64,000 nucleotides of DNA, from NCBI RefSeq assembly GCF_031323975.1, contig NZ_JAVIWS010000001.1, positions 1,860,001 through 1,924,000 on the forward strand, given 5' to 3'. Positions 30,059 to 45,562 of the stretch are shown piece after piece. Position 1 is the first letter of the stretch, and every line of letters starts with the position of its first letter. Both the position numbers and the translations under genes were made by a program. A model generated the notes under the pieces. That model was given only the letters and a program-made list of their open reading frames with translations. It was not told the DNA's origin and did not search any database. This DNA is from Escherichia ruysiae. Lineage in GTDB: Bacteria; Pseudomonadota; Gammaproteobacteria; Enterobacterales; Enterobacteriaceae.

Positions 30059-31390
30059 TCATACTTCCGCCGTCTCTAAACGCGCTTTAATCTGTTCGTA
30101 ATATTCATTATTAATCAGATAAAAGCGCATGATAAGTCCAGTTATCAGGTTGAGCACCGCTGGAACTATCGTCATTAATAAGCAGATCCCCCACAGCGCC
30201 TTCGGTGTTTGCTCAATGCCTGGTTGGTAGCCCATACAGGATAAAGCAATACCTATAAAGCCTCCCGCCAACCCCATACCGAATTTTTGAAAAAAGAGAA
30301 TCCCGCCAAATGCCAGCCCGGAAACACGTTGCCCCGTTTTCATTTCGCCGTAATCCACCGATTCAGCAATAGATGCCCAATAGACGGGAAGCTGGATATC
30401 CGTCAGGAAGGTCACCACAATATAAAATGTAAAGGCTAACACTATAGAATCTGGTTGCACAAAATACATCGCGCCACCCACCACGAACGCCAGTAATTGG
30501 GTATAACGAAACATTTTTATTTTGTCATAGAAACGAGTAAGCCACGTGCAAGTTACCATCGCCATAACAGAAGCAATCACGCCTGAGGTTAAAAAGGGTG
30601 AAATTAAAGCATCCCCACCATTCAGATAATATTTTGCATAATATGCAGCTACAGAGTTACGAATAATCCCACCGAACATAATGACCGCGATGGCAACACC
30701 AAGAATTAGCCACTGATCATTTTTGACTAATAACCGAAACTGCGCGCTCATCCCAAGAGCAGGTCTTGGATGGTGGATACGTTCTTTTACACTAAAAAAA
30801 CAATAAAGACATAAACACGTTGCCAGAATTCCCATTGCTCCCATTGCAATTTGATAACCCAGTTGTACATTATTCTTACCAAGATACATTGCAGATAAAG
30901 GAACAATAATAGTTACTGCAAACATCGCGATTTTTGTCATGACAAAACGAAAACCGTTGGCACTCAATCGCTCTTGTGGATCATCCGTGATCACGCTAAT
31001 TAACGAAACATAAGGAATTGCGATGAATGTATATGTCAAGGTGAGTAAAATATAGGTCGCCCAGGCCCACAAAAGTTTCATCGAATAACCAACATCAGGC
31101 GTAATGAACATCAACCAAATGCTGATTCCAAAGGGTATCGACATAAAAAGCAACCATGGCCGATATTTTCCCCAACGCGTTATTGTTCTGTCTGTCAGCG
31201 TCCCTACAACAGGATCGATAACCGCATCAAGAATACGCACAGAAAATAACAGAATACCTAAATCTACCGGTTTCAGACCAAATATATCCGTGTAAAAATA
31301 AGTAATGATCATAGCCAAAGACATCATTACTATTGCGATAGCCATATCACCCGCGCCAAAACCTATCTTTTCATTTATCGTAAGTTTCAT
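30059..31390 (-). CDS. GPH-family (MelB-like) sugar/glycoside:cation symporter
   Basis: Inner-membrane transporter of the glycoside-pentoside-hexuronide family, 443 residues, about 12 membrane segments. Family marks: INEKIGFGAGDMAIAIV at the N-terminus, DAVIDPVVGTLTDRT in the loop between helices 2 and 3 (the cation-binding aspartates of MelB lie in this region), and ASIAESVDYGEMKTGQRVSGLAFG late in the sequence, typical of the YicJ/YagG/UidB branch. It is the only cytoplasmic-membrane importer in the module and is divergent from the GntR regulator, sharing 285 bases of promoter DNA with it. Substrate is inferred to be an uncharged glycoside or nucleoside-like compound. Confidence 0.85.
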   Translation of the reverse strand: MKLTINEKIGFGAGDMAIAIVMMSLAMIITYFYTDIFGLKPVDLGILLFSVRILDAVIDPVVGTLTDRTITRWGKYRPWLLFMSIPFGISIWLMFITPDVGYSMKLLWAWATYILLTLTYTFIAIPYVSLISVITDDPQERLSANGFRFVMTKIAMFAVTIIVPLSAMYLGKNNVQLGYQIAMGAMGILATCLCLYCFFSVKERIHHPRPALGMSAQFRLLVKNDQWLILGVAIAVIMFGGIIRNSVAAYYAKYYLNGGDALISPFLTSGVIASVMAMVTCTWLTRFYDKIKMFRYTQLLAFVVGGAMYFVQPDSIVLAFTFYIVVTFLTDIQLPVYWASIAESVDYGEMKTGQRVSGLAFGGILFFQKFGMGLAGGFIGIALSCMGYQPGIEQTPKALWGICLLMTIVPAVLNLITGLIMRFYLINNEYYEQIKARLETAEV

Positions 31391-31513
31391 ACACAGTACT
31401 CATTAATTATTTAAATTCATATTAAAAACAAATGTGTTAAAAATTTCAGCACATGATTTCTGTGAGTGAGGATAAATGCATTGGTAGATACCACAACAAA
31501 CCATTAAATCATT

Positions 31514-31529
31514 ATTGAACAACATCACA
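31514..31529. promoter_or_regulatory. Candidate CRP site in the divergent intergenic region
   Basis: ATTGA-N6-TCACA matches one CRP half-site fully and the other at three of five bases. Catabolite control would suit a sugar-uptake locus. Confidence 0.35.
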
Positions 31530-31590
31530 CAAAAACCAATCTCATTTAACATCATGATTTTTAATTATAAATGTGGTTTTTTCTGTTTTA

Positions 31591-31607
31591 TGTCACAGAT
31601 AGTGAAC
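31591..31607. promoter_or_regulatory. Palindrome, possible GntR operator
   Basis: TGTCACAGATAGTGAACA contains TCAC-N5-GTGA, a dyad 70-85 bases upstream of the regulator gene and on the side shared with the transporter. Assignment to the regulator at 31676 is inference. Confidence 0.3.
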
Positions 31608-31675
31608 AAGCATCATGCGTAATAAAAGCTAAAGAATGTAGAGTTGGTATCAACCACATGAAATGAGGCTTTGTC

Positions 31676-32428
31676 ATGATAAGAATTTATAAAGCCAGTA
31701 AAGGTCAGTTAAAACATCGTGAAATCTTTGATGAAATAAAGAAAAAGATTGATAACGGTGAATGGAAAGAAGGCAAAGCTATACCAACAGAAAGAGAACT
31801 TTCAGAATATTATTTAAGCAGCAGAACAACGATTCGCAAGGCAATAGAAAGCCTGAAACAACGCGGCTATCTGCATAGTGTCCACGGGCAAGGGACATTT
31901 GTATTACCTGCTCGCAGTAGGGAAAATCATTTATTACACAGCTTTACTGATGATATTAAAGCTCGTGGCGGTATACCTGCACAGAATATTCTTGAGATGG
32001 GGTTGATTCCCGTCAGTGATGTCATCAGAAAAAATCTCGAACTGGATATTCATGTTCATACCGTATTTTACATTAAACGCATTCGTTATATGGGAAGTAC
32101 ACCACTGGGTATTCAAACATCATGGCTTGCATTAAATGACGGACAAGAAATAACCCAGGATGAGCTGCTGGCGACAGGTTCGCTCTATATTTTACTGGAA
32201 GAAAAACTCGCCATTAAACCTTTAGAGGCAACTGAAATTATCTCCGCCCGGCTTCCTTCCCCCCTGGAACGGACATTGCTGGAGCTGACGGCCGAAGATG
32301 TCGTATTGAGTTGTACCCGCGTCACGCTATCCGTAGAACGCAAACCGATGGAGTACGTTGAGATGGTTTATCCCGCAAGCCGCTACTCCTACAAGGCACG
32401 AATTACAAAAGATAGTTTTAGTGTGTAA
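31676..32428 (+). CDS. GntR/HutC-family transcriptional regulator
   Basis: 250 residues. N-terminal winged helix (about 10-78): IKKKIDNGEWKEGKAIPTERELSEYYLSSRTTIRKAIESLKQRGYL, followed by HSVHGQGTFV. The C-terminal UTRA ligand-binding domain (about 90-245) includes VFYIKRIRYM and EYVEMVYPASRYSYKA. HutC-type members bind phosphorylated or amino sugars or histidine-pathway intermediates; here the ligand is probably a pathway intermediate of the following genes. First gene of the putative operon, 13 bases before the ADP-ribosylglycohydrolase-like gene. Resembles YegW in domain make-up and context. Visibly A+T-richer than the flanking core genes. Confidence 0.88.
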   Translation: MIRIYKASKGQLKHREIFDEIKKKIDNGEWKEGKAIPTERELSEYYLSSRTTIRKAIESLKQRGYLHSVHGQGTFVLPARSRENHLLHSFTDDIKARGGIPAQNILEMGLIPVSDVIRKNLELDIHVHTVFYIKRIRYMGSTPLGIQTSWLALNDGQEITQDELLATGSLYILLEEKLAIKPLEATEIISARLPSPLERTLLELTAEDVVLSCTRVTLSVERKPMEYVEMVYPASRYSYKARITKDSFSV

Positions 32429-32441
32429 TAGAGAGAATATT

Positions 32442-33518
32442 GTGAACAAAATTGAAAAAAACGTTATTTATAACAAAATTTTAGGTTCGTTAGCCTGCGC
32501 AGGAATGGGCGATGCTTTAGGCGCGGCGACTGAACTCTACAGCATTGATGAGATAAAAGAGCAATGGGGTGGTTTTTTAAACGATTTTGTATCTCCTCCC
32601 GCCGATACTTTCGCTGGCTCATTGAAAGGTGTTGCTGGACTGATTACCGATGATTCCAGTCAAATGTATGTATTTTCAGAGGGATTAATCCAGGCTGGTT
32701 TTGATAACTTCACCAATAAGGATTGGTTGGCTTGCCTCCTGCGTTGGGCTGATATGCAGCCCTACGCAAATTACAAAGGCCCCACGACAGAACAAATCGT
32801 CAAAGCACTCAAAGAAGGTAGGCCAACAAACACCATTGGGCGCATTGGAACATCTTCTCGCCAGGCTCCCAATATCGGTACAACGAATGGTGCCGGGATG
32901 CGTGTCGCCCCAGCAGGATTAATCTGGCCAGGCAATAAAGAAAAAGCATGCAATCTGGCATTATTAACCTGTCTACCTTCGCATGACACTAATATTGCGA
33001 TTGCCAGCGCATGCGCTATCGCAGCGGCAGCCTCCCAAGCCATGTTGCCGCAAGCCTCTCTTACATCATTACTGGACGCCGCAATCTGGGGAGCTAATTA
33101 CGGCGAACATCTGGCAAAACAACATGCTCGGTGTGTGGCAGGACCGTCTATTGCCATGCGAATCCAGCTTGCAGCGGACATCGCCAGACGTGCTAATGAT
33201 CTGGAGTCTTGCCTGCGAGAAATGGAAGGTCTGGTAGGTAACTCTGTCGCAGCTCACGAGTCAATTCCTGCGGCAATCGGCCTTCTGCTGTATTGCAAAG
33301 GAGAACCCTGGGAAACCATTTATGCTTGCGCCAATATCGGCAACGACACCGATAGCATCGCCACGATGGCAGGCGCAATTGCAGGAGCATGGCGCGGTTT
33401 TGATGCTCTCCCTAAAGACAAATATGCCTTTTTCCGTGCCGTAAATAATAAAGATTTCGACCTTGAAGCGACCGCGTCTGGCCTGACATTGCTTGCATTA
33501 CAGGCACAGGAGAAATAA
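32442..33518 (+). CDS. ADP-ribosylglycohydrolase-fold enzyme (GTG start)
   Basis: 358-residue all-alpha protein of the ADP-ribosylglycohydrolase (DraG/ARH, Mg-dependent) family. Metal-binding motifs are visible: GDALG near residue 23, TDDSSQ at 69-74 (family: TDDT), and GNDTDS at 300-305 (family: GGDTD). I chose GTG 32442, preceded by AGAGAG and 13 bases after the regulator stop; the frame stays open to an ATG at 32358 but that would overlap the regulator by 71 bases. Members split N- or O-glycosidic bonds of ribosyl conjugates. Next to a PfkB kinase it resembles YegU beside YegV. Substrate unknown. Its stop overlaps the next start (TAATG). Confidence 0.85.
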   Translation: MNKIEKNVIYNKILGSLACAGMGDALGAATELYSIDEIKEQWGGFLNDFVSPPADTFAGSLKGVAGLITDDSSQMYVFSEGLIQAGFDNFTNKDWLACLLRWADMQPYANYKGPTTEQIVKALKEGRPTNTIGRIGTSSRQAPNIGTTNGAGMRVAPAGLIWPGNKEKACNLALLTCLPSHDTNIAIASACAIAAAASQAMLPQASLTSLLDAAIWGANYGEHLAKQHARCVAGPSIAMRIQLAADIARRANDLESCLREMEGLVGNSVAAHESIPAAIGLLLYCKGEPWETIYACANIGNDTDSIATMAGAIAGAWRGFDALPKDKYAFFRAVNNKDFDLEATASGLTLLALQAQEK

Positions 33519-34516
33519 TGAACATGTCAGCCCGTACTCCTATTATGCCATTAGCGAAAACTCGTGAGGAAATAGACACAACGGCGGCAGCGTTACGTCA
33601 TTTGGCAATTATCTGGGGTGAATGTTTTTCTACTATTCAGCTCGATGAGTATGCTGTCAAACGCGTCTATATAGTGGGATCGGGCGACTCCTGGACGGTA
33701 GCACTGTGTGTCGCCGCATGGCTGGGAAAATATACACATCTGTCTTGTTCCGCATTGCAAACGTGGGATTTTCTTCAGACTGATTTAACCCGTTATCAGG
33801 AAGAAACGCTGATCATTATTCTCAGCGCGAGTGGCAGACCCTCATTGGCCGTTGACGCCTTCCACCACGCTGTATACTCAAACGCGCAAGTACTGGGTGT
33901 GACGAATTGCCCAGGAACGCCATTTTGCGCAATAACAGAAAATGTGCTCTACACATGGGCGAATAAGCAGGGTATTCCAACACAAAGTAGTAGTGTCACA
34001 CTTTATGCCCTCCTGCGCTTAGTGCAAAAATTATGTCCAGACATAACACCACTGCAAATTGAAGAAGATTTGGAAGGGAAATTTAGACAGATTAATCGGC
34101 ACTGGCAGCAAAAGAAGCGCCGTCTTTATCAGCAAAAAGAGATGACGTTTCTGGGTAGCGGCTTAAGTTGGGGACTGGCATTATCGGGCAGTAATTTACT
34201 TTCCTGTGGCCCACAGATTCGTGCGACAGCCCTTCCTGTGGAAGAATTCTATCATTCATTACGCTTATATCAAGTTGATGCCAGTCAGCATTATTTTTTA
34301 ATACCAGCCACATCCTGCGAGTACCCATTTTACCTTGCAACCCAAAAAGCAATCATTGAACAGGGAGCAACAGCAGAATTAATCAGTTTTATACCTGACG
34401 CCAGTGAGTCCACCAATTTATTTCTGGTCATGCAGTGGTTATATGAAATGTGTTGGCATTTAAGTTCTGATTATGTCAACGCAGGCGGAAAACGCGTTAG
34501 CCATATGGAGAAATAA
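33518..34516 (+). CDS. SIS-domain sugar-phosphate isomerase/deglycase-like protein
   Basis: 332 residues with two SIS domains, as in GlmS-C, AgaS and FrlB. First domain: VYIVGSGDSW near residue 51 and ILSASGRPSL near 101, the phosphate-binding serines. Second domain: FLGSGLSWGLALSGSN, then LPVEEFYHSLR, which supplies the usual glutamate near the active site. Such proteins act on phosphorylated aldoses, ketoses or amino sugars, for example removing an amine in a deglycase reaction. One-base overlap with the upstream gene (TAATG) implies translational coupling. It is an extra component compared with yegTUVW. Confidence 0.83.
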   Translation: MNMSARTPIMPLAKTREEIDTTAAALRHLAIIWGECFSTIQLDEYAVKRVYIVGSGDSWTVALCVAAWLGKYTHLSCSALQTWDFLQTDLTRYQEETLIIILSASGRPSLAVDAFHHAVYSNAQVLGVTNCPGTPFCAITENVLYTWANKQGIPTQSSSVTLYALLRLVQKLCPDITPLQIEEDLEGKFRQINRHWQQKKRRLYQQKEMTFLGSGLSWGLALSGSNLLSCGPQIRATALPVEEFYHSLRLYQVDASQHYFLIPATSCEYPFYLATQKAIIEQGATAELISFIPDASESTNLFLVMQWLYEMCWHLSSDYVNAGGKRVSHMEK

Positions 34517-34520
34517 GGCT

Positions 34521-35435
34521 ATGAAGAAATTTGATGTCGCCGCTTTAGGTAGTGGAAATATAGATATGTTTTTATCTATCCCGTCACTCCCCACACGTGG
34601 CGGTAAAGTGATCGGGGCACGCCTGGGCGAACAAGCTGGCGGCACCGTCGCCAACAGTGCCTGTGCGATGGGACAATTGGGTCTCGATGTTGTTTCGGTC
34701 TCATGTATAGGCAATGATCATTCGGCCTCGATCATTCTTGACGGATTTAAAAAACATCATGTGAATTGTGATTTCATTCAGGTAATCCCGGATTTAATTG
34801 CCAATACCGCGATTATTTTTATTGACGAATCAGGTGAAAAAACGTTGGTTTACTCACCTGGCAGCGATCATGAATGGGATGAAGAAAAAGCCCTACAGGC
34901 TATTGCTCAAAGTCATTATTTTTATTCGATGCCAGCCAATATAGAGAAATTTCGTATGCTGGCCCAATATGCCCATAGCCAGACGACAAAAGTCGTCGTT
35001 GATATTGAACCCCATATCGTTGCAACACCTGAGCGCCTTGCCAGTATTTTACAGCTTGCAGATATTGCGATTTTTAATTATGACGGCTTTATTCGTGGAT
35101 ATGCAGCAGAGCCAGATTGCACTCTTCTGCATGATATACAAGAAGATTATCAACTTGATGCTATCGTGGTAACGCTGGATGCTCGGGGAGTGATTGCGGT
35201 CAAAGGCAATGAGCAAGTGCAAATCGGTAGTTATACAATCCCCGTTCTTGATACCACAGGCGCTGGAGATACTTTTAATGGTGCCTTTATTTATAGCTTA
35301 ATAAAAAACATGTCTTTAATTGAAGCTCTGAAATTTGCCTCTGCTACAGCCGCAATAAATATTACCGCGTTAGGTGCCAGAGGCCATCTGGCGACGCCAT
35401 CGGAGGTTAATCTTTTTCTTTTACAACACGACTAA
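34521..35435 (+). CDS. PfkB-family sugar or nucleoside kinase
   Basis: 304 residues, ribokinase fold. N-terminal signature GSGNIDMFLSIPSLPTRGGKVIG with the GG hinge near residue 35; EQAGGTVANSACAMGQLG substrate lid region; C-terminal signature DTTGAGDTFNGAF with catalytic Asp250 and the anion hole GAGD. ATG 34521 (MKKFDVAALGSGN), four bases after the SIS stop; a longer frame from 34473 overlaps the SIS gene and is rejected. Likely phosphorylates the imported sugar moiety before or after the glycosidic cleavage. Equivalent in position to YegV. Confidence 0.87.
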   Translation: MKKFDVAALGSGNIDMFLSIPSLPTRGGKVIGARLGEQAGGTVANSACAMGQLGLDVVSVSCIGNDHSASIILDGFKKHHVNCDFIQVIPDLIANTAIIFIDESGEKTLVYSPGSDHEWDEEKALQAIAQSHYFYSMPANIEKFRMLAQYAHSQTTKVVVDIEPHIVATPERLASILQLADIAIFNYDGFIRGYAAEPDCTLLHDIQEDYQLDAIVVTLDARGVIAVKGNEQVQIGSYTIPVLDTTGAGDTFNGAFIYSLIKNMSLIEALKFASATAAINITALGARGHLATPSEVNLFLLQHD

Positions 35436-35464
35436 AAATAGATATACACACACAGGTAAACATC

Positions 35465-36589
35465 ATGAAAATAAAACATGCCGCTATTTTTCTGGCATTA
35501 CCGCTGTTATGCGCAACAGCGCAGGCAAACAGTTTTCTTCATTATGCCGGCGAGTTTAACTTCCCTACGGGAGAAAAACAGAACAATGTCACCATTGCGG
35601 GGATTTCTGCCATTACATTTGATCCCCAAAAGAATATTTTCTACGCTATTAACGATAGCAGAAACAATAATAAGGAGGGAGATGCCAGCCTTTATACGCT
35701 AAAAATGCAGGTGTCATCCAGGGGCATTGAGCAAGTAAATTTTCTCAACCAACGTCCACTGCTTGACGCAAAGCAGCAGCCTTTCATGATCAATATGGTG
35801 GATGCCGAAGGTCTGGCACTGACACACAATGGTGAATCGTTAATCTGGAGTTCGGAATTAGGTGCACCACTGCGTCTGAGCACTCTTGATGGCGTAATGG
35901 AGAAGGAGTTTACGTCTTTATTTCCTGCTCGCTTTAATATTAGCTCTGGCAAAGAGAGTACCAGTGGTATCCGCAGCGGCAATGCCTGGGAGGGCCTGAC
36001 GCTTACACCTGATGGTAAATCACTTTTTATCGCCGTTGAAAGTAGTCTTAAGCAGGATGGACCTATTGCAAGCCCAATAAATTCAGGCACATCACGCTTA
36101 CTGCAATTTTCTATGGATGCAGACGGTCAACCTTCAACGCAATTGCATGAATATCTCTATATTACTGATCCTGTTCCGCAAGTGAGTGAATTCGGTATTA
36201 ATGATAATGGCGTATCCGAGATCCTGGCGTTGAATGATCACCAATTATTGGTCATCGAACGTTCCGGCAGGAACGTCAGTGCTGGGTTCAATGACTGGGA
36301 TTACTCCGTCAGAGTTTATATGGTGGATTTAAATACCGCGAGCGATATCAAGAATATTGACAGTCTACAAGACTGGCCCAATAAATCCACGTTACAACCC
36401 GTCAGTAAAAAATTGTTGATCGATTTTGCCGATTACACTTCATCAGCGGATTGTATTGAAGGGGTAACATTCGGTCCTGAAATTGATGGGCATACATCAT
36501 TAATATTTGTATCAGATAACAATTTCCAGCCTCATCAACAGACAAAATTCTATTTATTCATCGATAAGGAAAACAAACTTAAAATTTAG
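35465..36589 (+). CDS. Periplasmic esterase-like/phytase-like protein
   Basis: 374 residues. Signal peptide MKIKHAAIFLALPLLCATAQA. The mature part fits the 'esterase-like activity of phytase' (Phytase-like) family: GISAITFDPQKNIFYAINDSR, DAEGLALTHNGESLIWSSE, WEGLTLTPDGKSLFIAVESSL and CIEGVTFGPEIDGHTSLIFVSDNNF. These repeated blades of a beta-propeller suggest a phosphomonoesterase or phosphodiesterase, but activity is not proven for most members. It is 29 bases after the kinase gene with AGGTAAACATC before the ATG, so it belongs to the same transcript. A periplasmic partner for the import of phosphorylated compounds is inferred. Confidence 0.8.
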   Translation: MKIKHAAIFLALPLLCATAQANSFLHYAGEFNFPTGEKQNNVTIAGISAITFDPQKNIFYAINDSRNNNKEGDASLYTLKMQVSSRGIEQVNFLNQRPLLDAKQQPFMINMVDAEGLALTHNGESLIWSSELGAPLRLSTLDGVMEKEFTSLFPARFNISSGKESTSGIRSGNAWEGLTLTPDGKSLFIAVESSLKQDGPIASPINSGTSRLLQFSMDADGQPSTQLHEYLYITDPVPQVSEFGINDNGVSEILALNDHQLLVIERSGRNVSAGFNDWDYSVRVYMVDLNTASDIKNIDSLQDWPNKSTLQPVSKKLLIDFADYTSSADCIEGVTFGPEIDGHTSLIFVSDNNFQPHQQTKFYLFIDKENKLKI

Positions 36590-36682
36590 AATCAAACCAC
36601 AGATATAAAAATTCTGACACCTGGAATTATCAGATGGTGTATTCAGCCACCAAAAATATATTTTATTCTGAAAGGGAATATT

Positions 36683-37417
36683 ATGAACTCTTATCTTAAA
36701 TTATCACTCGTAGGAATAATAACGTTATCTGGCTTTTCGCCTACGCTCACCTATGCAGAACAACCGCATGGATTTATTGATTATCGCCATGAGTATCTCG
36801 ATGATACTCGCACTCACGCGGACCGTGTCGAATTTGGTACGTTTTTTAGCAACGGTATCGGCCTGATGGGGGAATTACGCTATAACACCGATGAAGGTGA
36901 TAAAGATAAGTGGGACCCCTCACAATTTGGCAATAACGGAACAGGATTATCTGTCGTTTACCGCTTTAAGCCGCTGGATGACAAAAAGTTCTGGTTAGAA
37001 CCCATGTTCTGGCTTGATACCACACAATATTGGTCAACTTACGAATATGGTCTTTCTGCTGGTTATGATTTCAGCAAAGAGTGGAAGGTTTCGGGTCGTT
37101 TTCGTTATGACATGGATAAAGCCACCGATAAATCTAAAGGTTATGGCAATGATGATCGTAATAACCGCCGTTACGATGTGTGGATCGATTATCGACCACA
37201 AAACACCAACTTCCAATATCAGTTAAACCTGGTCTATTACAATAATGGTTATTTAACCTGGAATGATGGTCATACAAACTACACTGCATCATTTAAAGTG
37301 GGGTATAAAATGGGATCATGGATACCTTATATGAGTGTTGCGGATTATAAAGGTGTGGATAAAACATCAAGCAATCGCCAAATCCGTTGGCGCTGGGGTC
37401 TGACCTATACTTTCTAA
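36683..37417 (+). CDS. KdgM-family monomeric outer-membrane porin
   Basis: 244-residue outer-membrane beta-barrel. Signal peptide ends near TYA, mature start EQPHGFIDYRHEYLD. Alternating amphipathic strands rich in Tyr, Trp and Arg, and a C-terminus RWRWGLTYTF ending in Phe, are features of the KdgM/NanC/OmpL group of small porins specific for acidic oligosaccharides. The pore residues are rich in Arg and Asp. Expected to pass charged, possibly phosphorylated, saccharides. Preceded by AAAGGGAATATT; 93 bases from the phytase-like gene and 14 bases before the next. Confidence 0.82.
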   Translation: MNSYLKLSLVGIITLSGFSPTLTYAEQPHGFIDYRHEYLDDTRTHADRVEFGTFFSNGIGLMGELRYNTDEGDKDKWDPSQFGNNGTGLSVVYRFKPLDDKKFWLEPMFWLDTTQYWSTYEYGLSAGYDFSKEWKVSGRFRYDMDKATDKSKGYGNDDRNNRRYDVWIDYRPQNTNFQYQLNLVYYNNGYLTWNDGHTNYTASFKVGYKMGSWIPYMSVADYKGVDKTSSNRQIRWRWGLTYTF

Positions 37418-37431
37418 TCTGGAATAAAAAA

Positions 37432-38301
37432 ATGAATAATAAATTTAAAATCACCCTCTGGATGATGCTCTCTGCCCTACCTGCTTTATCTTGTGCACAG
37501 GTAAAAAATATAGTCACTAGCGAATATAGTACAGTCAATAAAATCATAACAGAAAAGGAAACTCTCTATCCTCCCAATAAGATATTATTAGTTTTTGATA
37601 TTGATAATACGTTATTAACGAGTGGCACACGTATTGGCGGTGATATCTGGTATCAATGGCAAACCGGCAAACTACCGTTAAAACCAGATAGCTCACAAAA
37701 AGTTCCTTGCCTGTATGAAAATGCAATCAGTATGCTTTATGAACTTAGCCCTATGCAGCTTACCGAGTCACAGTTACCGGCGATGTTAAAACAATGGCAA
37801 CAGAAACATACCGCCTTTGCTCTGACATCCAGGGCGCCAGATACACTCTTTCCAACATTACGTGAACTAAAGCGAAACGGCATTGATTTTTCTTCTTCCG
37901 CACTCAGGAAAAAAGAGGATGCTTTGCCACCCTTTGAAAAAGGAAAACTTAAACGCTCATGGTTGTACAGCCAGGGGATATTTTTTTCTTCCGGACAAGA
38001 TAAAGGCGTAATTCTCGACTTTATGCTGGATAAAATGGAGAACAAATATGACGCGATTGTGTTTGTCGATGACGGACAAGCAAACATTAATGCGATGACG
38101 AAAATGTTTTCTACGGAAAAATGGTTCTCCACGGATTTTACCGTTATTCATTATACAAAAATAGAAAGCGATTTAATTAAGCAACAAGGGGCAGTCATTA
38201 CACTCGCACAAACAGATATAATGAGTACCGACTGGAAGATGCTCTCTGGTTCACTGGCCAGTATATTTCCTGATCGACATAAATTGTGTCCGATCAACTA
38301 G
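37432..38301 (+). CDS. Periplasmic HAD-superfamily (DUF2608-like) phosphatase
   Basis: 289 residues. N-terminal signal peptide (MNNKFKITLWMMLSALPALSCAQ); ATG 37432 has no strong Shine-Dalgarno, but an earlier in-frame ATG at 37387 lies inside the porin gene. HAD motif I is VFDIDNTLL, with nucleophile Asp56 and acid Asp58; motif II is ALTSRAP; motif IV is IVFVDDGQANI. The arrangement matches DUF2608. A periplasmic phosphatase is inferred. Last gene of the putative operon; A+T-rich. Confidence 0.78.
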   Translation: MNNKFKITLWMMLSALPALSCAQVKNIVTSEYSTVNKIITEKETLYPPNKILLVFDIDNTLLTSGTRIGGDIWYQWQTGKLPLKPDSSQKVPCLYENAISMLYELSPMQLTESQLPAMLKQWQQKHTAFALTSRAPDTLFPTLRELKRNGIDFSSSALRKKEDALPPFEKGKLKRSWLYSQGIFFSSGQDKGVILDFMLDKMENKYDAIVFVDDGQANINAMTKMFSTEKWFSTDFTVIHYTKIESDLIKQQGAVITLAQTDIMSTDWKMLSGSLASIFPDRHKLCPIN

Positions 38302-38354: not shown

Positions 38355-38378
38355 AATGGCTGCACCCGGTCAGCCATT
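38355..38378 (+). terminator. Weak hairpin between the catabolic operon and the RpiR gene
   Basis: AATGGCTG/CAGCCATT with an eight-base loop, followed by CTTTCTTCCCG on the plus strand. It overlaps the 3' end of the convergent RpiR gene. Confidence 0.4.
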
Positions 38379-39257
38379 CTTTCTTCCCGTTTTCAAACCC
38401 CGATGGAAATCGTTAATTCGCTTAATGGTTTTAACCGCACGCTGCGGCACTGCGGAAGCCACCGACCAGACAATCATTTCCAGGCACAACAATACCGTAC
38501 CATGTAGCGGCGTTTTCCCCTTTTCATCGCCGCGCGGAACATGAATCACGATACTGGCGTCTTTGCTAAAACGCGAATCCAGAGCGTTTGTCAGCAAAAT
38601 AACAGGGATCCCCAGCCGTCTTGCTTCACGCAGCGTTGTCAGTCCTTCCCGGTGTGCGGATTTTTGCGCCATCATGATCAATACATCACCACGCTGAAGC
38701 GCGATCAGTTGCTCGGCAAGGCCAATACCAGTACGGTTTAGCGCCGTGGCGGGTAAGCCAATGCGATTGAATAACCGTGCAGTATAGTCCGCCAGAATAC
38801 CCGAAGCGCCAATGCCAAAAATAACAACTTGCCGCGCCTGCACCAGCATGGCTACCGCTTGTGCAAGCGCATGGCGGTTTTCAGGCTCTGACAGGACATT
38901 ACAGGTATACAAATGCCCTTCAAGAACAAAATCGATTGCGGTGTTAACATCACTCGTCAAGTTACTCACCGTCGTAGACATCTTTTCGCTGGAACTAAGA
39001 GCAGGACCAAGCCACTGTTCCAGAGTGCGTTTCAGATCTCGTAGCCCCGCAAACCCCAGGGCCTGTATAGCCCGAATCACTGTGGCATCAGAAGTGTTCA
39101 ATGTGGTCGCAATTTCCATCGCCGTTTGCTCGAGTACCACTTCACGATGTTCATTAATGTAGCTGGCGACGGCTCTTAACCCAGGCGTTAACTGACTCGC
39201 GCGAGTACGAAAACGCTCACCAAAAATATCAACTCGTGTTTTGTCTTTCTGAATCAT
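38370..39257 (-). CDS. RpiR-family regulator with SIS domain, last gene of the siderophore-uptake operon
   Basis: 295 residues. N-terminal HTH_6 domain (about 15-90) with LTPGLRAVASYINEHREVVLEQTAMEIATTLNTSDATVIRAIQALGF. The C-terminal SIS domain (about 130-265) contains VVIFGIGASGILADYTARLFNRIG and LIMMAQKSAHREG, the phosphosugar-binding fold. ATG 39257 overlaps the binding-protein stop by four bases (ATGA), so it is translationally coupled to the ABC genes. RpiR proteins usually sense sugar phosphates; here the neighbours are iron genes, an unusual pairing. It may correspond to the regulator gene fitR of the Fit locus as I remember it. Confidence 0.85.
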   Translation of the reverse strand: MIQKDKTRVDIFGERFRTRASQLTPGLRAVASYINEHREVVLEQTAMEIATTLNTSDATVIRAIQALGFAGLRDLKRTLEQWLGPALSSSEKMSTTVSNLTSDVNTAIDFVLEGHLYTCNVLSEPENRHALAQAVAMLVQARQVVIFGIGASGILADYTARLFNRIGLPATALNRTGIGLAEQLIALQRGDVLIMMAQKSAHREGLTTLREARRLGIPVILLTNALDSRFSKDASIVIHVPRGDEKGKTPLHGTVLLCLEMIVWSVASAVPQRAVKTIKRINDFHRGLKTGRKNG

Positions 39258-40201
39258 TTGGCCTCCGGTAGAGGTCGCCCTGCAATTTGTGATTGTATCT
39301 GCGCGGCTATCAGCCCCAGAGATGCAAAGGAGTTAGAAATCGCCTCTTCACGAGAAATCAGCACATAGCGCCCGGAACGACAGGCCGTCAGAAATTGACA
39401 CCATCCCGGCATGACTTTTTCCATTGCTGCCAGCTCATCCTGAGGTTTACCACCGGTGTCACCACGCCAGGTTGCAAAAACAAAATCGGCATCCAGTTCA
39501 GGCAAACGCTCCGCGCTCACATCCATTCGCCCACCTTCAGGAATGCTCTCAATCAGCGGCGGAAAGCGAAAACCAGCATCGCGTAATACACGCCCCAGCG
39601 AATGATAGCTATGCATCACATTAATTTTTCCCTGATTTGCCTGAATCACCGATACCGTTATTTTTTGGCTGTCCAGCGTCGCCTTCAGCGCATTGATTTG
39701 TGCCTGATAGCGGCGTTCAAGTATCGCCAGCCGCGCCTGCGTTCCTGTAAGTTCTGCCAGCTTGCGGTAGATTTCTGGCGCGCCCCCCTTGAGATGATCA
39801 ATGCTCACCGTGGGCGCAATTTTTTCCAGTTGTTCAATGGGCGTATTACGGGTCGGTTCTGTGATGATCAGATCAGGCTTTGCCGCCACAATCGCTTCAA
39901 TATCAATATCAGCAGTTCCAATAAAGGCTATCGATGAATTATCGAAGTCGACGCCTGTCAGTAACGCGCCTGATCGAATGAAATGGCTACCATCAGGCCG
40001 TGTTCGCCCGTGGCTGGCGACAGGAGGTACACCGAGCTCAATCAGAGGAATAGTGATATCAAGGTCGTGTAAAGAGACAATTCTCTTTGGATGTGCAGGA
40101 ACAGTGACTTTGCGCCCTAAATCATCAGTAAAGACCTGAACCGGTTCTGTTGCACGGGCAAAAAATGACAACAGTATCAGCAGAGAAAAAAATAAACGCA
40201 T
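39254..40201 (-). CDS. Periplasmic siderophore-binding protein of the ABC importer (FecB/FhuD-like)
   Basis: 315 residues of the cluster A-III (TroA/BtuF/FecB-type) binding-protein family. Signal peptide MRLFFSLLILLSFFARATE. The mature part has VTVPAHPKRIVSLHDLDITIPLIELGVPPVA, then AAKPDLIITEPTRN, the typical two lobes joined by a long helix. ATG 40201 with GGGAG is preferred to a frame open to 40264. Binds a ferric-siderophore delivered by the receptor at 43421 (inference) and passes it to the permeases immediately upstream in the operon. Confidence 0.87.
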   Translation of the reverse strand: MRLFFSLLILLSFFARATEPVQVFTDDLGRKVTVPAHPKRIVSLHDLDITIPLIELGVPPVASHGRTRPDGSHFIRSGALLTGVDFDNSSIAFIGTADIDIEAIVAAKPDLIITEPTRNTPIEQLEKIAPTVSIDHLKGGAPEIYRKLAELTGTQARLAILERRYQAQINALKATLDSQKITVSVIQANQGKINVMHSYHSLGRVLRDAGFRFPPLIESIPEGGRMDVSAERLPELDADFVFATWRGDTGGKPQDELAAMEKVMPGWCQFLTACRSGRYVLISREEAISNSFASLGLIAAQIQSQIAGRPLPEAK

Positions 40202-40211
40202 ATAACTCCCG

Positions 40212-41261
40212 TTAAAAACTGTTCCTGCGTTGCCAGAGCAGTAGTAAAAAGAATGGTCCACCAATCAGTGAAATAATGATTCCGGCTGGCAGTTGCAAAG
40301 GCAAAAAAGCCAAACGACCAATGCTATCCGCCAGGATAACTAATAACGCCCCCGATACTGCGCTCCCCAGCAGTAATGTCGTCTGCCCGCCACGCAGAAT
40401 AAAACGTGATATATGCGGTGCTATCAATCCGACAAAACCGATGTTACCAACACATGAAACGCAGACAGCTGTCAGGATTATTGGTGCGGCTACACGCAAT
40501 AACGCCAGACGGGAACTATTCACACCTAACCCGGTTGCAATCTGATGACCAAGCAGAGCGATATCCGCAGTCCGGGCGGTGAACAGCAATAAAAGAGCGG
40601 CTGGCACCATCCAACAGGCTGAAATACCGACTAACATCCAGTTGGCTGCATGAAGGCTTCCCGATAACCACATCAATGCAGTTTGTACATCACGAACATC
40701 TGCTGTGGTCATAAATACACCGATCCCGGCGGCGAAAAACCAGGACACGCCAATGCCTATCAGAACAAATCGCGGGCGAGAAATATCGCGCGCGCAAAAA
40801 ATCACGATTAAAGCTACCAACAAGCCACCAGCAAGACCAGCCACTGGACGCCAGAACATTCCCAGCATTGGAAACTGGAAAATCAGCCACAGCACAGCCA
40901 CGCTACATCCTTCTTTAACGCCGATTAAACCGGGATCGGCAAGGCCGTTACGCGCAATGGATTGCATTGCGGCTCCTGCCATACCTAACATGGCCCCGCA
41001 TAGCAATGCCATGATGACTCTTGGCAAGCGGATATCCTGCACAATATAACGTGCGTCTGTGCTTACGTTTTCTGGAGCAAACAACGCTCGCCCGACTTCC
41101 GATGCCGGGACGGAGAAAGTGCCATGCATCAAACCGAATATCAGTATTCCAACCGCAAACAGAGACAGCCCACTAAGCAACACCAGGTTTTTAGGGCGCA
41201 CCAGTGTCGAAAACTTACCAACACGTAGTGGGCGTAGTCCGACGTTCATTATCCGACTCAT
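40212..41261 (-). CDS. FecCD-family siderophore permease subunit 2
   Basis: 349 residues of the BtuC/FecD type, with nine to ten membrane segments. Typical motifs: LRLPRVIMALLCGAMLGMAGAAMQSIARNGLADPGLIGV, the ATPase-contact loop GLGVNSSRLALLR and the C-terminal IGFVGLIAPHISRFILRG and GIIISLIGGPFFLLLL. The ATG overlaps the end of permease 1 by four bases. The 10-base gap to the binding-protein gene keeps this in one operon. Confidence 0.9.
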   Translation of the reverse strand: MSRIMNVGLRPLRVGKFSTLVRPKNLVLLSGLSLFAVGILIFGLMHGTFSVPASEVGRALFAPENVSTDARYIVQDIRLPRVIMALLCGAMLGMAGAAMQSIARNGLADPGLIGVKEGCSVAVLWLIFQFPMLGMFWRPVAGLAGGLLVALIVIFCARDISRPRFVLIGIGVSWFFAAGIGVFMTTADVRDVQTALMWLSGSLHAANWMLVGISACWMVPAALLLLFTARTADIALLGHQIATGLGVNSSRLALLRVAAPIILTAVCVSCVGNIGFVGLIAPHISRFILRGGQTTLLLGSAVSGALLVILADSIGRLAFLPLQLPAGIIISLIGGPFFLLLLWQRRNSF

Positions 41262-42241
41262 TTGAACATCCTCGTCGCCATAATGACAAAAACGGGCGCA
41301 CCAACTAACGCCGTCATGACACCGGTCGCTAACTCATGGGGCGTGAAAAGCGTCCGGGCAATAATATCTGCCAGTAATAACAAAAGCGCGCCGACACAAG
41401 CTGAAAGAGGGAGCAGAACGCGCAGATCCGCTGATACCAGACGCCTGACAATCTGCGGTACTAGCAGACCGACAAAACCAATGGGGCCAGCAATCGATAC
41501 GGCTGCGCCACAGAGTAACGCGATCGCAAGCAGAGTGAATGTTCGCGTGCGGAGTACCGAGACGCCCAGCCCCTGCGCCATGCGATCACCCAGTGCCAAC
41601 ATGTTAAGAGAGGGCGCAAGGTAAATGGCTAACACAACCCCCCCCAGAGAAAACCAGGCGGACGTACCCAGCGTCGCCCAATCCTGCCCCGCTAAATCAC
41701 CTGCTAGCCATGTCCGCATCTCCAGCAGTGTTTGTTCGTCAAGAATCAGGATTGCAGCCGTTATTGAGGACACGAACGCCGATAGCGCCACGCCGCATAA
41801 AGTAACTTTCATTGGCGTTAACCCTGAACGCCCTGCGGAGGAAAGCAGCAATATCAACAGGAACAATAACGCGCCGCCCGTAGATGCCAGCAGTGGGCGT
41901 CCAACCGGAAAGGCCAGCCCAAGCGCACTGGCAGCAACGACAGCAAGAGCGGCTCCGGCATTTAAGCCTAAAATATGTGGCTCCCCCAATGGGTTACGAA
42001 TGACAGCCTGCAATAAAGCACCAGCAACGCCAAGAGAAGCACCGATAAGCAATGCTGCCGCTAAACGCGGCAAACGGAGTCTTACAATTACGTTGTGATC
42101 GAAGTTTTGCGGTTCAAAATGAAGAAATGCCTGCAACACCGTTTGTGGTGCAATAAATCGGGCACCAATCCCTGGATATACCACGCATCCCACCAGCAGT
42201 AAGGCGAGGAAAAATACAGTAACCAGCCCCGCGCGCATCAT
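41258..42241 (-). CDS. FecCD-family siderophore permease subunit 1
   Basis: 327 residues of the same family as its neighbour: RLPRLAAALLIGASLGVAGALLQAVIRNPLGEPHILGLNAGAA-like N-half, the coupling helix GLGVSVLRTRT, and IGFVGLLVPQIVRRLV. It ends at GVMTALVGAPVFVIMATRMFK. Four-base overlaps with both neighbours. With permease 2 it should form the heterodimeric channel. Confidence 0.9.
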   Translation of the reverse strand: MMRAGLVTVFFLALLLVGCVVYPGIGARFIAPQTVLQAFLHFEPQNFDHNVIVRLRLPRLAAALLIGASLGVAGALLQAVIRNPLGEPHILGLNAGAALAVVAASALGLAFPVGRPLLASTGGALLFLLILLLSSAGRSGLTPMKVTLCGVALSAFVSSITAAILILDEQTLLEMRTWLAGDLAGQDWATLGTSAWFSLGGVVLAIYLAPSLNMLALGDRMAQGLGVSVLRTRTFTLLAIALLCGAAVSIAGPIGFVGLLVPQIVRRLVSADLRVLLPLSACVGALLLLLADIIARTLFTPHELATGVMTALVGAPVFVIMATRMFK

Positions 42242-43047
42242 ACTTTTTCTACACCACGAAACGGCATGAATAACGGTTTCCCCGTCAGAGGATTTATTGA
42301 TGCGTGAACATCAACGTCAAAGACAGCTTTTACCAGCTCAGGCGTGCAATGCTCCCCCTCATTCAATACACGCACCACTTTTCCCTGGCGTAAAAATATC
42401 AACGTATCACCATAATTCACGGCAAAATTCAGATCATGCAACACCACAACGACTGTACGCCCGTGATGACGCGTCAAATCATGTAATAATTCAAGAATTT
42501 CAACCTGATAACGTAAATCAAGCCAGGTTGTGGGTTCATCCAGCAGGATATAAGGCGTCTTTTGCGCCAACACCATCGCAATCCAGCATCGCTGGCGCTG
42601 CCCACCAGAGAGTTTTTCAACCGGTAAATGTGCAAACTCCTGCGTACCGGTTAATTTTAGTGCCTCTTCTACCGCCTGTTCGTCGGCGTCGCTCCATTGA
42701 CGTATGAAATTTTGCCAGGGAAAGCGCCCACGCGACACCAGTTCATAAACGGTTAAGCCCTCTGGCAATAATGGCGACTGCGGCAAGATCCCAAGTCTGC
42801 GGGATAACTCTTTCGTTGGTTGCTCGTGAATCGCTTTACCATCCAGCAATATCGAGCCGCCCATGGGTTGCAAGATACGTGCAATGGTGCTGAGCAACGT
42901 CGACTTTCCACAACCGTTTGCCCCAACCAGAACGGTCATTTTTTCTGTGGGAACGGAGAAAGAAACACCATCAACAATGATTTTCTTGTGATACCCGGCA
43001 GAAACATTGTCGAGGATCAGCCCCTGCCCTTTTGCGTTATGTGCCAC
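42238..43047 (-). CDS. ABC-transporter ATPase for ferric siderophore (GTG start)
   Basis: 269 residues. Walker A VGANGCGKSTL, signature LSGGQRQR, Walker B YILLDEPTTWLD, H-loop VVVVLHDLNFAV. Belongs to the FepC/FecE group. The start is GTG at 43047; no better in-frame start exists, because a TAA lies upstream, and the Shine-Dalgarno is poor. A Fur-like site lies about 30 bases upstream. First gene of the importer operon, divergent from the receptor. Confidence 0.9.
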   Translation of the reverse strand: MAHNAKGQGLILDNVSAGYHKKIIVDGVSFSVPTEKMTVLVGANGCGKSTLLSTIARILQPMGGSILLDGKAIHEQPTKELSRRLGILPQSPLLPEGLTVYELVSRGRFPWQNFIRQWSDADEQAVEEALKLTGTQEFAHLPVEKLSGGQRQRCWIAMVLAQKTPYILLDEPTTWLDLRYQVEILELLHDLTRHHGRTVVVVLHDLNFAVNYGDTLIFLRQGKVVRVLNEGEHCTPELVKAVFDVDVHASINPLTGKPLFMPFRGVEKV

Positions 43048-43075
43048 GTGTACGCCAACTTAATCAAAGACAAAC

Positions 43076-43094
43076 AAAAATAAAACTCATTCTC
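43076..43094 (-). promoter_or_regulatory. Fur-like site before the ABC-importer operon
   Basis: On the minus strand GAGAATGAGTTTTATTTTT matches the Fur consensus at about 12 of 19 positions, at a place where it could control the importer genes. Confidence 0.4.
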
Positions 43095-43303
43095 CTTTGA
43101 GAGTTTGACGCCACAAAATGTAGTAGTCAAGAAGTTAAAAGCCACACAAAAACAAGGTAAATAACAGGTTAAATATTTTTAATGATAAAAATAAAACCAT
43201 TATATATTAATAATTTAATCACAACTAAATTGCATTAATCTCTCATAAAAACACATGTGGCAATTTTTTGTTATTTATCATTTACTACTACATCACCACA
43301 TGA

Positions 43304-43322
43304 TTGAATGATTCTCAATTAC
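43304..43322 (+). promoter_or_regulatory. Fur-like site before the TonB receptor
   Basis: TTGAATGATTCTCAATTAC matches the consensus at about 11 of 19 positions, with the core ATGAT-N2-TCA kept, 100 bases before the receptor. The rest of the 373-base divergent gap is A+T-rich and holds no other pattern I can name. Confidence 0.45.
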
Positions 43323-43420
43323 ATATCCGATGGCGAAATAACAAACGGATAGTGCTTAGTGAGCAACAAGAAACAATTTTCACTCGCGACAATCCGCGAG
43401 TTTTTGGGATAACAGACTAA

Positions 43421-45562
43421 ATGGCTAAGTTCACACCTTCATTCTCAGGAGTCAAAGGTCGGGCGCTCTTTTCACTGTTCTTTGCGGCACCGATGATTCA
43501 TGCAACCGACACTGTAACGACCAAAGATGGCGAAACAATCACTGTTACAGCGGATGCAAATACCGCAACTGAGGCTACCGATGGTTATCAACCTCTGAGC
43601 ACCTCCACGGCGACATTAACCGATATGCCAATGCTGGATATTCCGCAGGTGGTCAATACGGTTAGCGATCAAGTACTGGAAAATCAGAATGCGACGACGC
43701 TGGATGAGGCGCTTTATAACGTCAGTAACGTGGTACAGACCAATACATTAGGCGGGACTCAGGATGCTTTTGTACGCCGTGGGTTTGGCGCAAACCGGGA
43801 TGGCTCGATCATGACCAACGGTCTGCGAACCGTACTTCCTCGCAGCTTCAACGCCGCAACAGAACGTGTGGAAGTGCTAAAAGGCCCGGCCTCCACGCTG
43901 TATGGCATTCTCGATCCTGGCGGACTGATTAACGTCGTGACAAAGCGCCCGGAAAAAACATTCCATGGTTCTGTCTCAGCCACGTCCTCCAGTTTCGGTG
44001 GTGGCACCGGGCAACTTGATATCACAGGCCCCATTGAAGGCACTCAGCTGGCATACCGCCTGACGGGGGAAGTGCAGGATGAAGATTACTGGCGGAATTT
44101 CGGTAAAGAGCGCAGTACATTTATTGCCCCATCACTCACCTGGTTTGGTGATAATGCAACAGTAACCATGCTCTATTCCCATCGGGATTATAAAACGCCG
44201 TTCGATCGTGGAACGATTTTCGACCTTACGACGAAACAGCCCGTAAACGTTGATCGAAAAATACGTTTCGACGAACCGTTTAATATTACAGATGGTCAGT
44301 CCGATCTGGCGCAACTCAACGCAGAATATCATCTCAATAGCCAGTGGACAGCGCGCTTTGATTACAGCTACAGCCAGGATAAATACAGCGATAATCAAGC
44401 TCGCGTTACCGCGTATGATGCAACGACAGGAACACTGACACGGCGTGTTGATGCAACTCAGGGATCTACCCAGCGTATGCATTCTACTCGTGCGGATCTG
44501 CAAGGGAATGTTGATATTGCTGGATTCTATAATGAAATTTTGAGTGGGGTGTCATATGAATATTATGATCTTCTGCGCACAGATATGATTCGCTGTAAAA
44601 ACGCTAAAGATTTCAATATTTATAATCCTGTTTATGGCAATACCAGCAAATGCACAACGGTCTCGGCGTCGGACAGCGATCAGACGATCAAACAGGAGAG
44701 CTACTCAGCGTACGCACAGGACGCACTCTATCTGACCGATAACTGGATTGCCGTCGCCGGGATCCGCTATCAGTATTACACACAGTATGCGGGTAAAGGC
44801 CGCCCTTTTAATGTCAATACTGACAGTCGCGATGAACAATGGACTCCCAAACTGGGGTTGGTCTACAAACTGACGCCATCGGTATCCTTATTTGCTAATT
44901 ATTCGCAAACATTTATGCCGCAATCGTCAATTGCCAGCTACATTGGCGATCTTCCACCGGAATCATCTAATGCTTACGAAGTCGGGGCAAAATTCGAGCT
45001 GTTCGATGGTATAACCGCAGATATTGCGCTGTTTGATATCCATAAACGTAACGTCTTGTATACCGAAAGTATTGGTGACGAAACCATCGCCAAAACGGCA
45101 GGCCGCGTTCGTTCAAGAGGGGTAGAGGTCGACCTTGCGGGAGCATTAACTGAAAATATTAATATAATTGCCAGCTACGGCTATACCGATGCTAAGGTTC
45201 TGGATGATCCTGATTATGCAGGAAAACCATTGCCGAATGTTCCTCGTCATACCGGTTCGCTATTCCTGACCTATGACATTCACAACATGCCAGGCAATAA
45301 CACACTGACGTTTGGCGGTGGCGGACATGGCGTAAGCCGTCGTTCGGCAACCAATGGGGCTGACTATTATCTGCCAGGCTATTTCGTTGCCGATGCCTTC
45401 GCCGCATACAAAATGAAATTGCAGTATCCGGTCACTCTGCAATTAAACGTCAAAAACCTGTTTGATAAAACGTATTACACCTCTTCCATCGCCACAAATA
45501 ATCTGGGCAACCAGATTGGCGATCCTCGTGAAGTGCAATTCACGGTGAAAATGGAGTTTTGA
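43421..45562 (+). CDS. TonB-dependent ferric-siderophore receptor (Fit-like)
   Basis: 713 residues. Signal sequence ends near MIHA. TonB box ETITVTA. Plug domain about 55-180: PQVVNTVSDQVLENQNATTLDEALYNVSNVVQTN, then GFGANRDGS and VEVLKGPASTLYGILDPGGLINVVTKRP. The 22-stranded barrel ends in REVQFTVKMEF with C-terminal Phe. Overall it is most like FhuA/FhuE-type hydroxamate receptors (FpvA-like family); the ligand is unknown. Divergent from a matching ABC importer. No siderophore-synthesis genes lie in the window, so a foreign or shared siderophore is likely. ATG 43421 follows GGATAACAGACTAA. Confidence 0.9.
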   Translation: MAKFTPSFSGVKGRALFSLFFAAPMIHATDTVTTKDGETITVTADANTATEATDGYQPLSTSTATLTDMPMLDIPQVVNTVSDQVLENQNATTLDEALYNVSNVVQTNTLGGTQDAFVRRGFGANRDGSIMTNGLRTVLPRSFNAATERVEVLKGPASTLYGILDPGGLINVVTKRPEKTFHGSVSATSSSFGGGTGQLDITGPIEGTQLAYRLTGEVQDEDYWRNFGKERSTFIAPSLTWFGDNATVTMLYSHRDYKTPFDRGTIFDLTTKQPVNVDRKIRFDEPFNITDGQSDLAQLNAEYHLNSQWTARFDYSYSQDKYSDNQARVTAYDATTGTLTRRVDATQGSTQRMHSTRADLQGNVDIAGFYNEILSGVSYEYYDLLRTDMIRCKNAKDFNIYNPVYGNTSKCTTVSASDSDQTIKQESYSAYAQDALYLTDNWIAVAGIRYQYYTQYAGKGRPFNVNTDSRDEQWTPKLGLVYKLTPSVSLFANYSQTFMPQSSIASYIGDLPPESSNAYEVGAKFELFDGITADIALFDIHKRNVLYTESIGDETIAKTAGRVRSRGVEVDLAGALTENINIIASYGYTDAKVLDDPDYAGKPLPNVPRHTGSLFLTYDIHNMPGNNTLTFGGGGHGVSRRSATNGADYYLPGYFVADAFAAYKMKLQYPVTLQLNVKNLFDKTYYTSSIATNNLGNQIGDPREVQFTVKMEF

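Follow-up and report, generated by a model that had tools for sequence, protein, structure and literature searches.

A GntR-linked gene block of Escherichia ruysiae proposed to scavenge phosphorylated ribosides

Introduction

What does an ADP-ribosylglycohydrolase (ARH)-fold enzyme act on when its gene lies among those of a sugar kinase, a transporter and a regulator? ARH-fold enzymes are known as reversers of ADP-ribosylation, and bacteria carry several uncharacterised ARH families adjoining sugar kinases, yegU of K-12 among them. The question arises for a block of eight genes at positions 30059–38301 of a 64,000-nucleotide stretch of Escherichia ruysiae DNA (assembly GCF_031323975.1, contig NZ_JAVIWS010000001.1, positions 1,860,001 to 1,924,000), hereafter the window, which an earlier note made from the sequence alone had read as one functional unit. 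We propose, with a probability of about 0.55, that the eight genes form a single GntR regulon that scavenges phosphorylated ribosides, that is, nucleotides or nucleoside-like ribosyl conjugates. This reading draws on linkage to nucleoside uptake and nucleotidase genes, on a shared operator motif and on conservation of the block; the idea of a single functional unit is supported.

Results

Layout of the block

The block consists of eight intact genes, a plus-strand run of seven with intergenic gaps of 13, −1, 4, 29, 93 and 14 bases and a divergent GPH gene; open reading frame coordinates confirm the genes, positions and gaps that had been noted earlier. All eight proteins score above the curated Pfam cut-off (MFS_2, GntR with UTRA, ADP_ribosyl_GH, SIS, PfkB, Phytase-like, KdgM and DUF2608). 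The features are as follows.

30059–31390, minus strand: GPH-family (MFS_2) symporter, divergent from the operon (Pfam MFS_2, 322.7 bits; NCBIfam TIGR00792 gph, 351 against a cut-off of 231.35)
31482–31493, no strand: putative GntR operator 1, TGGTAGATACCA, on the GPH side (motif TGGTnnnnACCA)
31645–31656, no strand: putative GntR operator 2, TGGTATCAACCA, on the gntR side (motif TGGTnnnnACCA, 163 bp from operator 1)
31676–32428, plus strand: GntR/HutC-type regulator with UTRA domain, presumed repressor (Pfam GntR 64.3 and UTRA 80.7 bits)
32442–33518, plus strand: ARH-fold enzyme with GTG start, proposed riboside 5′-phosphate glycosidase (PF03747, 169.6 bits)
33518–34516, plus strand: SIS, a sugar-phosphate enzyme with two SIS domains and a GlmS-isomerase/NagB-II fold
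34521–35435, plus strand: PfkB-family kinase, proposed riboside 5′-kinase (Pfam PfkB, 152.7 bits)
35465–36589, plus strand: phytase-like (PF13449) beta-propeller, presumed periplasmic (Pfam 226.7 bits; signal peptide read by eye)
36683–37417, plus strand: KdgM-type outer-membrane porin (Pfam KdgM, 105.4 bits)
37432–38301, plus strand: DUF2608 HAD-like periplasmic phosphatase candidate (PF11019, 197.9 bits; signal peptide read by eye)

Related loci carry nucleoside genes

The locus is rare. A search for the ARH at E 1e-80 reached 2 of 394 genomes at the level of the order and 1 of 369 at that of the class, its own genome included in each; at E 1e-40 it is found in 22 of 392 genomes of the family, namely its own, two close ones and 19 with a sibling of Salmonella type. 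A search with the SIS protein over 60 genomes returned its own gene and three weak matches within open frames of 612–614 amino acids, which we read as GlmS, and the gene occurred in none of the ten other same-genus genomes of that search. The comparison is for this reason drawn mostly from one scan of GTDB genome contigs with an ARH alignment, which yielded 80 loci; 46 of these, with ARH about 46% identical or better, were counted and 34 more distant ones were excluded. Gene presence was taken from tblastn tables and the families were checked by Pfam on examples. Because 15 of the 46 loci are shorter than 15 kb, all presence counts are lower bounds.

A nucleoside marker (the inosine-uridine nucleoside hydrolase IUNH, the nucleoside-binding protein PnrA/BMP, Tsx, 5′-nucleotidase or adenosine deaminase) is present in 39 of the 46 related loci, in support of the ribosyl or nucleotide-type substrates that the earlier note had favoured. 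By marker, the counts are 30 for IUNH, 23 for PnrA/BMP, two each for Tsx and 5′-nucleotidase and one for adenosine deaminase, while a Bmp gene would fall in a 19-kb stretch by chance about 1% of the time (1–7 Bmp matches per genome, 19 genomes). The same loci hold PfkB (38), an RbsA-like ATPase (27), permeases (27) and a TonB receptor (17). The Pfam-checked examples comprise Tsx in Vibrio and Enterobacter, a PnrA-like Bmp in Vibrio, IU_nuc_hydro in a Chloroflexi metagenome-assembled genome, A_deaminase and 5_nucleotid_C in Kosakonia, and PhoD in Nitrospirillum.

The versions closest to that of the window have the same set of outer genes. In Kosakonia, Trabulsiella and a Yersinia frederiksenii plasmid, GPH and KdgM lie on one side and GntR, ARH, SIS, PfkB, phytase-like and 5′-nucleotidase genes on the other. 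The Enterobacter version places HAD, KdgM, phytase-like, Tsx and GPH genes opposite GntR, ARH, SIS and PfkB, and the Vibrio europaeus version has phytase-like, KdgM and Tsx genes, with an ABC importer replacing GPH.

A putative operator is shared by regulator, uptake and catabolic genes

Two TGGTnnnnACCA inverted repeats lie between the GPH gene and gntR, and such a pair recurs at a spacing of 163–179 bp in E. coli, Enterobacter, Kosakonia, Trabulsiella and Yersinia. All 27 loci with a gntR match, from gamma-, beta- and alphaproteobacteria, carry the motif in the 450 bp upstream of gntR. Of these, 23 belong to the 46 related loci, and the other four are L111, L117 and the loci in the window and in E. 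coli; they are not all independent, given the window and E. coli as well as several Herbaspirillum loci. Sites are dense upstream of gntR, with 45 in 12.2 kb, and sparse elsewhere, with 25 in 499 kb; none of the other 255 palindromic half-sites reaches more than 3 of the 27 loci. Exact TGGTACGTACCA occurs 37 times in 19 genomes, picked because the cassette carries the motif, against 2 for a reversed control, with the Bmp gene of the cassette no more than about 12 kb away from 35 of the 37 sites. The genome of the window contains a single zero-mismatch TTGGTWKATACCA, at this locus; a one-mismatch search there gave 26 matches against 17 for the reversed control, and we claim no further genomic sites.

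The motif also marks genes other than gntR. In Ramlibacter it precedes TonB-receptor, 5′-nucleotidase and phytase-like genes, and in Rhizobacter it lies directly upstream of a phytase-like gene. In Yoonia it stands between BMP and IUNH, and also ahead of a unit with a 5_nucleotid_C match in its second frame and a phytase-like gene at its end. In L111, a genome of the same order, it precedes Tsx. A TGGTACGTACCA site in Pseudoduganella (L154) precedes a lone PfkB-like gene at a distance of 55 kb from the cassette, and an isolated one in Vibrio (L158), inside an unrelated coding gene, is read as chance. For L017 and L084 the motif counted is TGGTGGGnACCA, with exact sites nearby; that of L084 lies inside an ExbB-like gene (L157), and that of L017 probably likewise. 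A conserved putative operator thus appears at the regulator gene and at catabolic and uptake genes alike, as a GntR riboside regulon would predict. The regulator itself is 28% identical to K-12 FrlR and 25% to YegW/GgaR.

Hydrolase, kinase and SIS enzyme

The ARH protein scores 169.6 bits against a PF03747 cut-off of 26.2 and matches ARH3 structures by profile (E 3e-17); a second ARH gene lies elsewhere in the genome. Its TDD and GNDTD motifs (T71, D72, D73; N303, D304, T305, D306, numbered from window base 32436) are invariant across 21 aligned sequences, and we take these TDD and NDTD-type motifs to be metal-binding.

The kinase finds its best NCBIfam match in ribokinase (TIGR02152, D_ribokin_bact) at 146.7 bits, below the cut-off of 299.65. 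Lys43 and Glu143 of ribokinase, presumably sugar-site residues, are substituted in all nine cassette kinases, by Thr and Pro in the window, with D16, N46 and D255 retained. The same two residues are missing from PsuK, aminoimidazole riboside (AIRs) kinase and K-12 FrlD and YegV, and K-12 FruK is without Glu143. Because two ribokinase residues are lost, the window PfkB is, judged from its sequence, not a plain ribokinase, and the loss is not proof of a nucleoside kinase. The earlier proposal that the kinase acts before the glycosidase gains weak support from these residues, which exclude a plain ribokinase and do not single out a nucleoside kinase.

The SIS protein appears closer in fold to GlmS/NagB-II than to FrlB, and its E-x-x-H motif aligns with FrlB. 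As an arabinose-5-phosphate isomerase it has a weak profile match (2xhz, E 3e-5), and that assignment is retained only within an alternative discussed below.

Envelope proteins

The structure model of the phytase-like protein is a beta-propeller (pLDDT 86.6), a fold serving many chemistries, and the nearest structures among the matches listed are YjiK and glutaminyl cyclotransferase. No phytase is among the 50 matches listed for the model, which excludes nothing. The suggestion that this protein is a phosphatase therefore finds no support in the model. Its homologues occur in 18 of the 46 related loci. The DUF2608 protein has an intact DxDxT-type motif (read by eye), which we take to be a HAD signature; it matches HAD-IIIC weakly, below that family's cut-off, and has a homologue in the Enterobacter version. 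Searches of PDB sequences with the HAD and phytase-like proteins gave no match. The KdgM porin is shared with the Vibrio, Kosakonia, Trabulsiella, Enterobacter and Yersinia versions. Entry through the outer membrane followed by periplasmic dephosphorylation, as the earlier note had envisaged, is supported by the 5′-nucleotidase genes of the Kosakonia, Trabulsiella and Yersinia versions, and by the one under the shared operator in Ramlibacter.

Conservation, spread and position

E. coli NZ_CP027452 carries the same eight genes in identical order and orientation, and DNA identity of the block to E. coli is about 89–90%. The block is matched in 407 of 5426 E. coli genomes, and at least 80% of it is present in 403, so the recurrence of the eight-gene order is not a chance grouping. 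All eight genes are free of internal stops in both the window and NZ_CP027452, and dN/dS between the window and E. coli runs from 0.046 (ARH) to 0.315 (SIS); from these open frames and ratios of 0.05–0.32, the sequences indicate that the genes are under selection. Compared with its neighbours, SIS has a lower dS (0.21 versus 0.33–0.61) and a higher dN/dS (0.32), and the lower dS suggests that this part was exchanged, giving 33518–34516 a mosaic history.

Genes of the neighbourhood include qseBC, mdaB, ygiN, parE and tolC, an Escherichia-like setting. The window has ygiN on one side of the block and an rpiR/iron-transport block on the other, whereas in NZ_CP027452 the eight genes sit between the rpiR/iron-transport block and parE. 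The iron module (38370–45562 in the window) comprises an rpiR regulator, a siderophore ABC transporter and a TonB receptor, and its order relative to the studied block is swapped in NZ_CP027452. From this swapped order of the two modules, we read the eight-gene block as moving as a unit and independently of the iron module.

Further ARH cassettes

Beside Burkholderiales cassettes lies a giant gene of about 1400–1720 codons (L152:2779–7632, minus strand; L156:6681–11831, plus strand; also L008, L009, L030, L037, L084 and L153). In L152, L153 and L156 the motif falls in the gap before it, a gap shared with a divergent exbD-like or phytase-like gene. Two frames tested gave no Pfam match, and seven aligned frames share an R ... 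S-x-[ST] ... Q-x-E ... PG pattern, whose R, S-x-[ST] and Q-x-E elements we regard as reminiscent of ADP-ribosyltransferases. In a marine actinobacterium (L047:8938–15134), ARH adjoins a sugar-type ABC importer, an arginase-family gene and PfkB. In the Chloroflexi loci L022 and L025, ARH lies in a single run with four nucleoside hydrolases, two SIS genes and several PfkB genes, to which L022 adds PRAI-like and BtpA genes. On Klebsiella plasmid pC708_1 (L119:5023–10788), a phosphotransferase-system importer, two amidohydrolase genes, ARH and GntR form another uncharacterised ARH cassette.

Discussion

A pathway can be proposed in which the substrate would enter through the KdgM porin, DUF2608 would remove phosphate in the periplasm, the propeller protein may cleave an ester, and GPH would import the riboside. 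In the cytoplasm, PfkB would phosphorylate the 5′-OH, and the ARH-fold enzyme would hydrolyse the glycosidic bond of the riboside 5′-phosphate to give ribose 5-phosphate and the aglycone, with SIS isomerising, deaminating or deglycating the sugar phosphate when the substrate needs it. GntR would keep both divergent units repressed through the two TGGTnnnnACCA operators, and binding of the substrate, or of a phosphorylated intermediate, to UTRA would lift the repression. Such a scheme would resemble PsuK/PsuG, kinase and then glycosidase, with the ARH enzyme in PsuG's place. The path laid out in the earlier note is borne out in part.

Several findings weigh against this proposal. Seven of the 46 related loci have no nucleoside marker, six of these seven being truncated loci under 15 kb, and the window block itself is without Tsx, PnrA, IUNH and UshA, so that the substrate class rests on the relatives. 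With IUNH in 30 loci, ARH need not be the main nucleosidase. The residue argument for the kinase is weak, FrlD and YegV also being without Lys43 and Glu143 and FruK without Glu143. A gntR match is found in just 23 of the 46 loci, and the motif was judged in those alone; Nitrospirillum L082, with no gntR match, has no intergenic motif. This SIS type is present in 12 of the 46 loci, and four others have a different SIS gene.

The alternative that fares best, though we consider it unlikely, reverses the order of the enzymes: ARH would be a nucleoside or ADP-ribosyl hydrolase acting on the unphosphorylated riboside, PfkB a later ribose or pentose kinase, and SIS an isomerase of a non-ribose pentose phosphate, e.g. 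arabinose 5-phosphate from arabinosyl nucleosides. In its favour are the ribokinase profile as PfkB's best NCBIfam match (146.7 bits), the weak match of SIS to 2xhz, and the 30 loci with IUNH, a family that hydrolyses unphosphorylated nucleosides. An Amadori pathway like frl/fra, with PfkB making a fructosamine or ribulosamine phosphate and SIS as deglycase, is improbable. It would account for the combination of PfkB, tandem SIS and GntR, which the frl operon shares, for a regulator nearer FrlR than YegW, for the E-x-x-H motif that aligns with FrlB, and for the absence of Lys43 and Glu143 from FrlD as from the cassette kinases; the ARH gene and the nucleoside-type neighbours of the relatives set the block apart from frl.

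Two further explanations are very improbable. A yegTUVW duplicate serving ADP-glucose and glycogen metabolism, in line with the proposal for GgaR, would fit the identity of YegU to ARH (30%) and of YegV to PfkB (22%), and GgaR senses ADP-glucose and represses yegTUV according to PMC10819704. However, the block's transporter is GPH whereas YegT is assigned to the nucleoside:H+ symporter family, porin and phosphatase point to external substrates, and no glycogen gene was recognised among the neighbours examined. That the genes are neighbours without joint function, as the changing sides and order of phytase-like, KdgM and HAD genes in Enterobacter and Vibrio might suggest, is hard to reconcile with 403 E. 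coli genomes holding the block, its change of side as a whole relative to the iron block, motif pairs common to the divergent halves, and phytase-like genes with the motif directly upstream in Ramlibacter and Rhizobacter.

Within the riboside proposal, a more specific and speculative version, which we hold to be doubtful, would make the locus a dedicated pathway for debris of ADP-ribosylation or NAD turnover. Ribosyl-amine conjugates, e.g. ribosyl-arginine 5′-phosphate left after pyrophosphate cleavage, would lose their phosphate outside and, once imported, regain one from PfkB before being cleaved by ARH, whose family is suited to bonds of this kind, and SIS would remove the ketoamine formed by ribosylamine rearrangement. 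The hints, none of them decisive, are ARH with an arginase-family gene and PfkB in L047, adenosine deaminase and 5′-nucleotidase elsewhere, and the giant gene of the Burkholderiales.

Locus, operator and relatives together provide a defined regulon in which the idea of an ARH enzyme as catabolic glycosidase can be put to the test. The locus could also supply the missing function for yegTUV-like operons, and may explain how E. coli strains with the block (403 of 5426 genomes) come to use a phosphoriboside as a nutrient.

Comparison with known systems

In the open-licence PMC literature, no paper evidently on this gene set is among the matches listed, and none was found for the exact operator palindrome. 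The earlier note could name no matching E. coli pathway; two relatives are in fact recognisable, yegTUVW and a Salmonella-type operon, and both are distant.

The K-12 yegTUV-yegW (GgaR) cluster likewise groups an ARH, a PfkB kinase, a major facilitator superfamily (MFS) importer and a GntR repressor. Against the block proteins, YegU is 30% identical to ARH, YegV 22% to PfkB and YegW 25% to GntR. Unlike the block, yegTUVW is without SIS, porin and periplasmic enzymes. YegT is placed in the nucleoside:H+ symporter (NHS) family, and GgaR, sensing ADP-glucose and repressing yegTUV, is linked to glycogen, in PMC10819704; the function of yegTUVW is itself unproven. The block's transporter is of the GPH family, and the block is without the combination of an NHS-family symporter and YegU, YegV and YegW orthologues that marks yegTUVW.

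The Salmonella-type operon (GPH, AIRs kinase, ARH and GntR) has the same four functions, its GPH scoring about 600 bits and its ARH being 36–40% identical. This ARH occurs in 19 of 392 same-family genomes, each time adjoining GPH, the same type of kinase and GntR. The kinase, annotated in the record as aminoimidazole riboside kinase, matches PDB 1tyy, and the Salmonella enzyme of that name is mentioned in PMC2651755. Kinase and GntR fall in sequence clusters other than those of the block, and the annotated example is without SIS, porin and phosphatase.

The fructoselysine operon frlABCDR shares a tandem-SIS enzyme, a PfkB kinase and a GntR regulator; unlike it, the block has ARH and no epimerase, its SIS appears nearer GlmS/NagB-II, and its relatives have nucleoside-type neighbours. 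PnrA/IUNH clusters contain the ARH–PfkB pair in Vibrio, Burkholderiales, Rhizobium and Nitrospirillum, whereas the Escherichia version has GPH for the ABC importer and no IUNH. With psuK-psuG-psuT the block would share an importer and a PfkB riboside kinase followed by a glycosidase, which in the psu pathway lead to ribose 5-phosphate (PMC9247573). In contrast to psuKG, no PsuG family is among the Pfam matches of the eight genes, and the ARH-fold enzyme would cleave instead. The block is not yegTUVW, the Salmonella-type operon, frl or psu, and by analogy it is psu that its proposed working most resembles.

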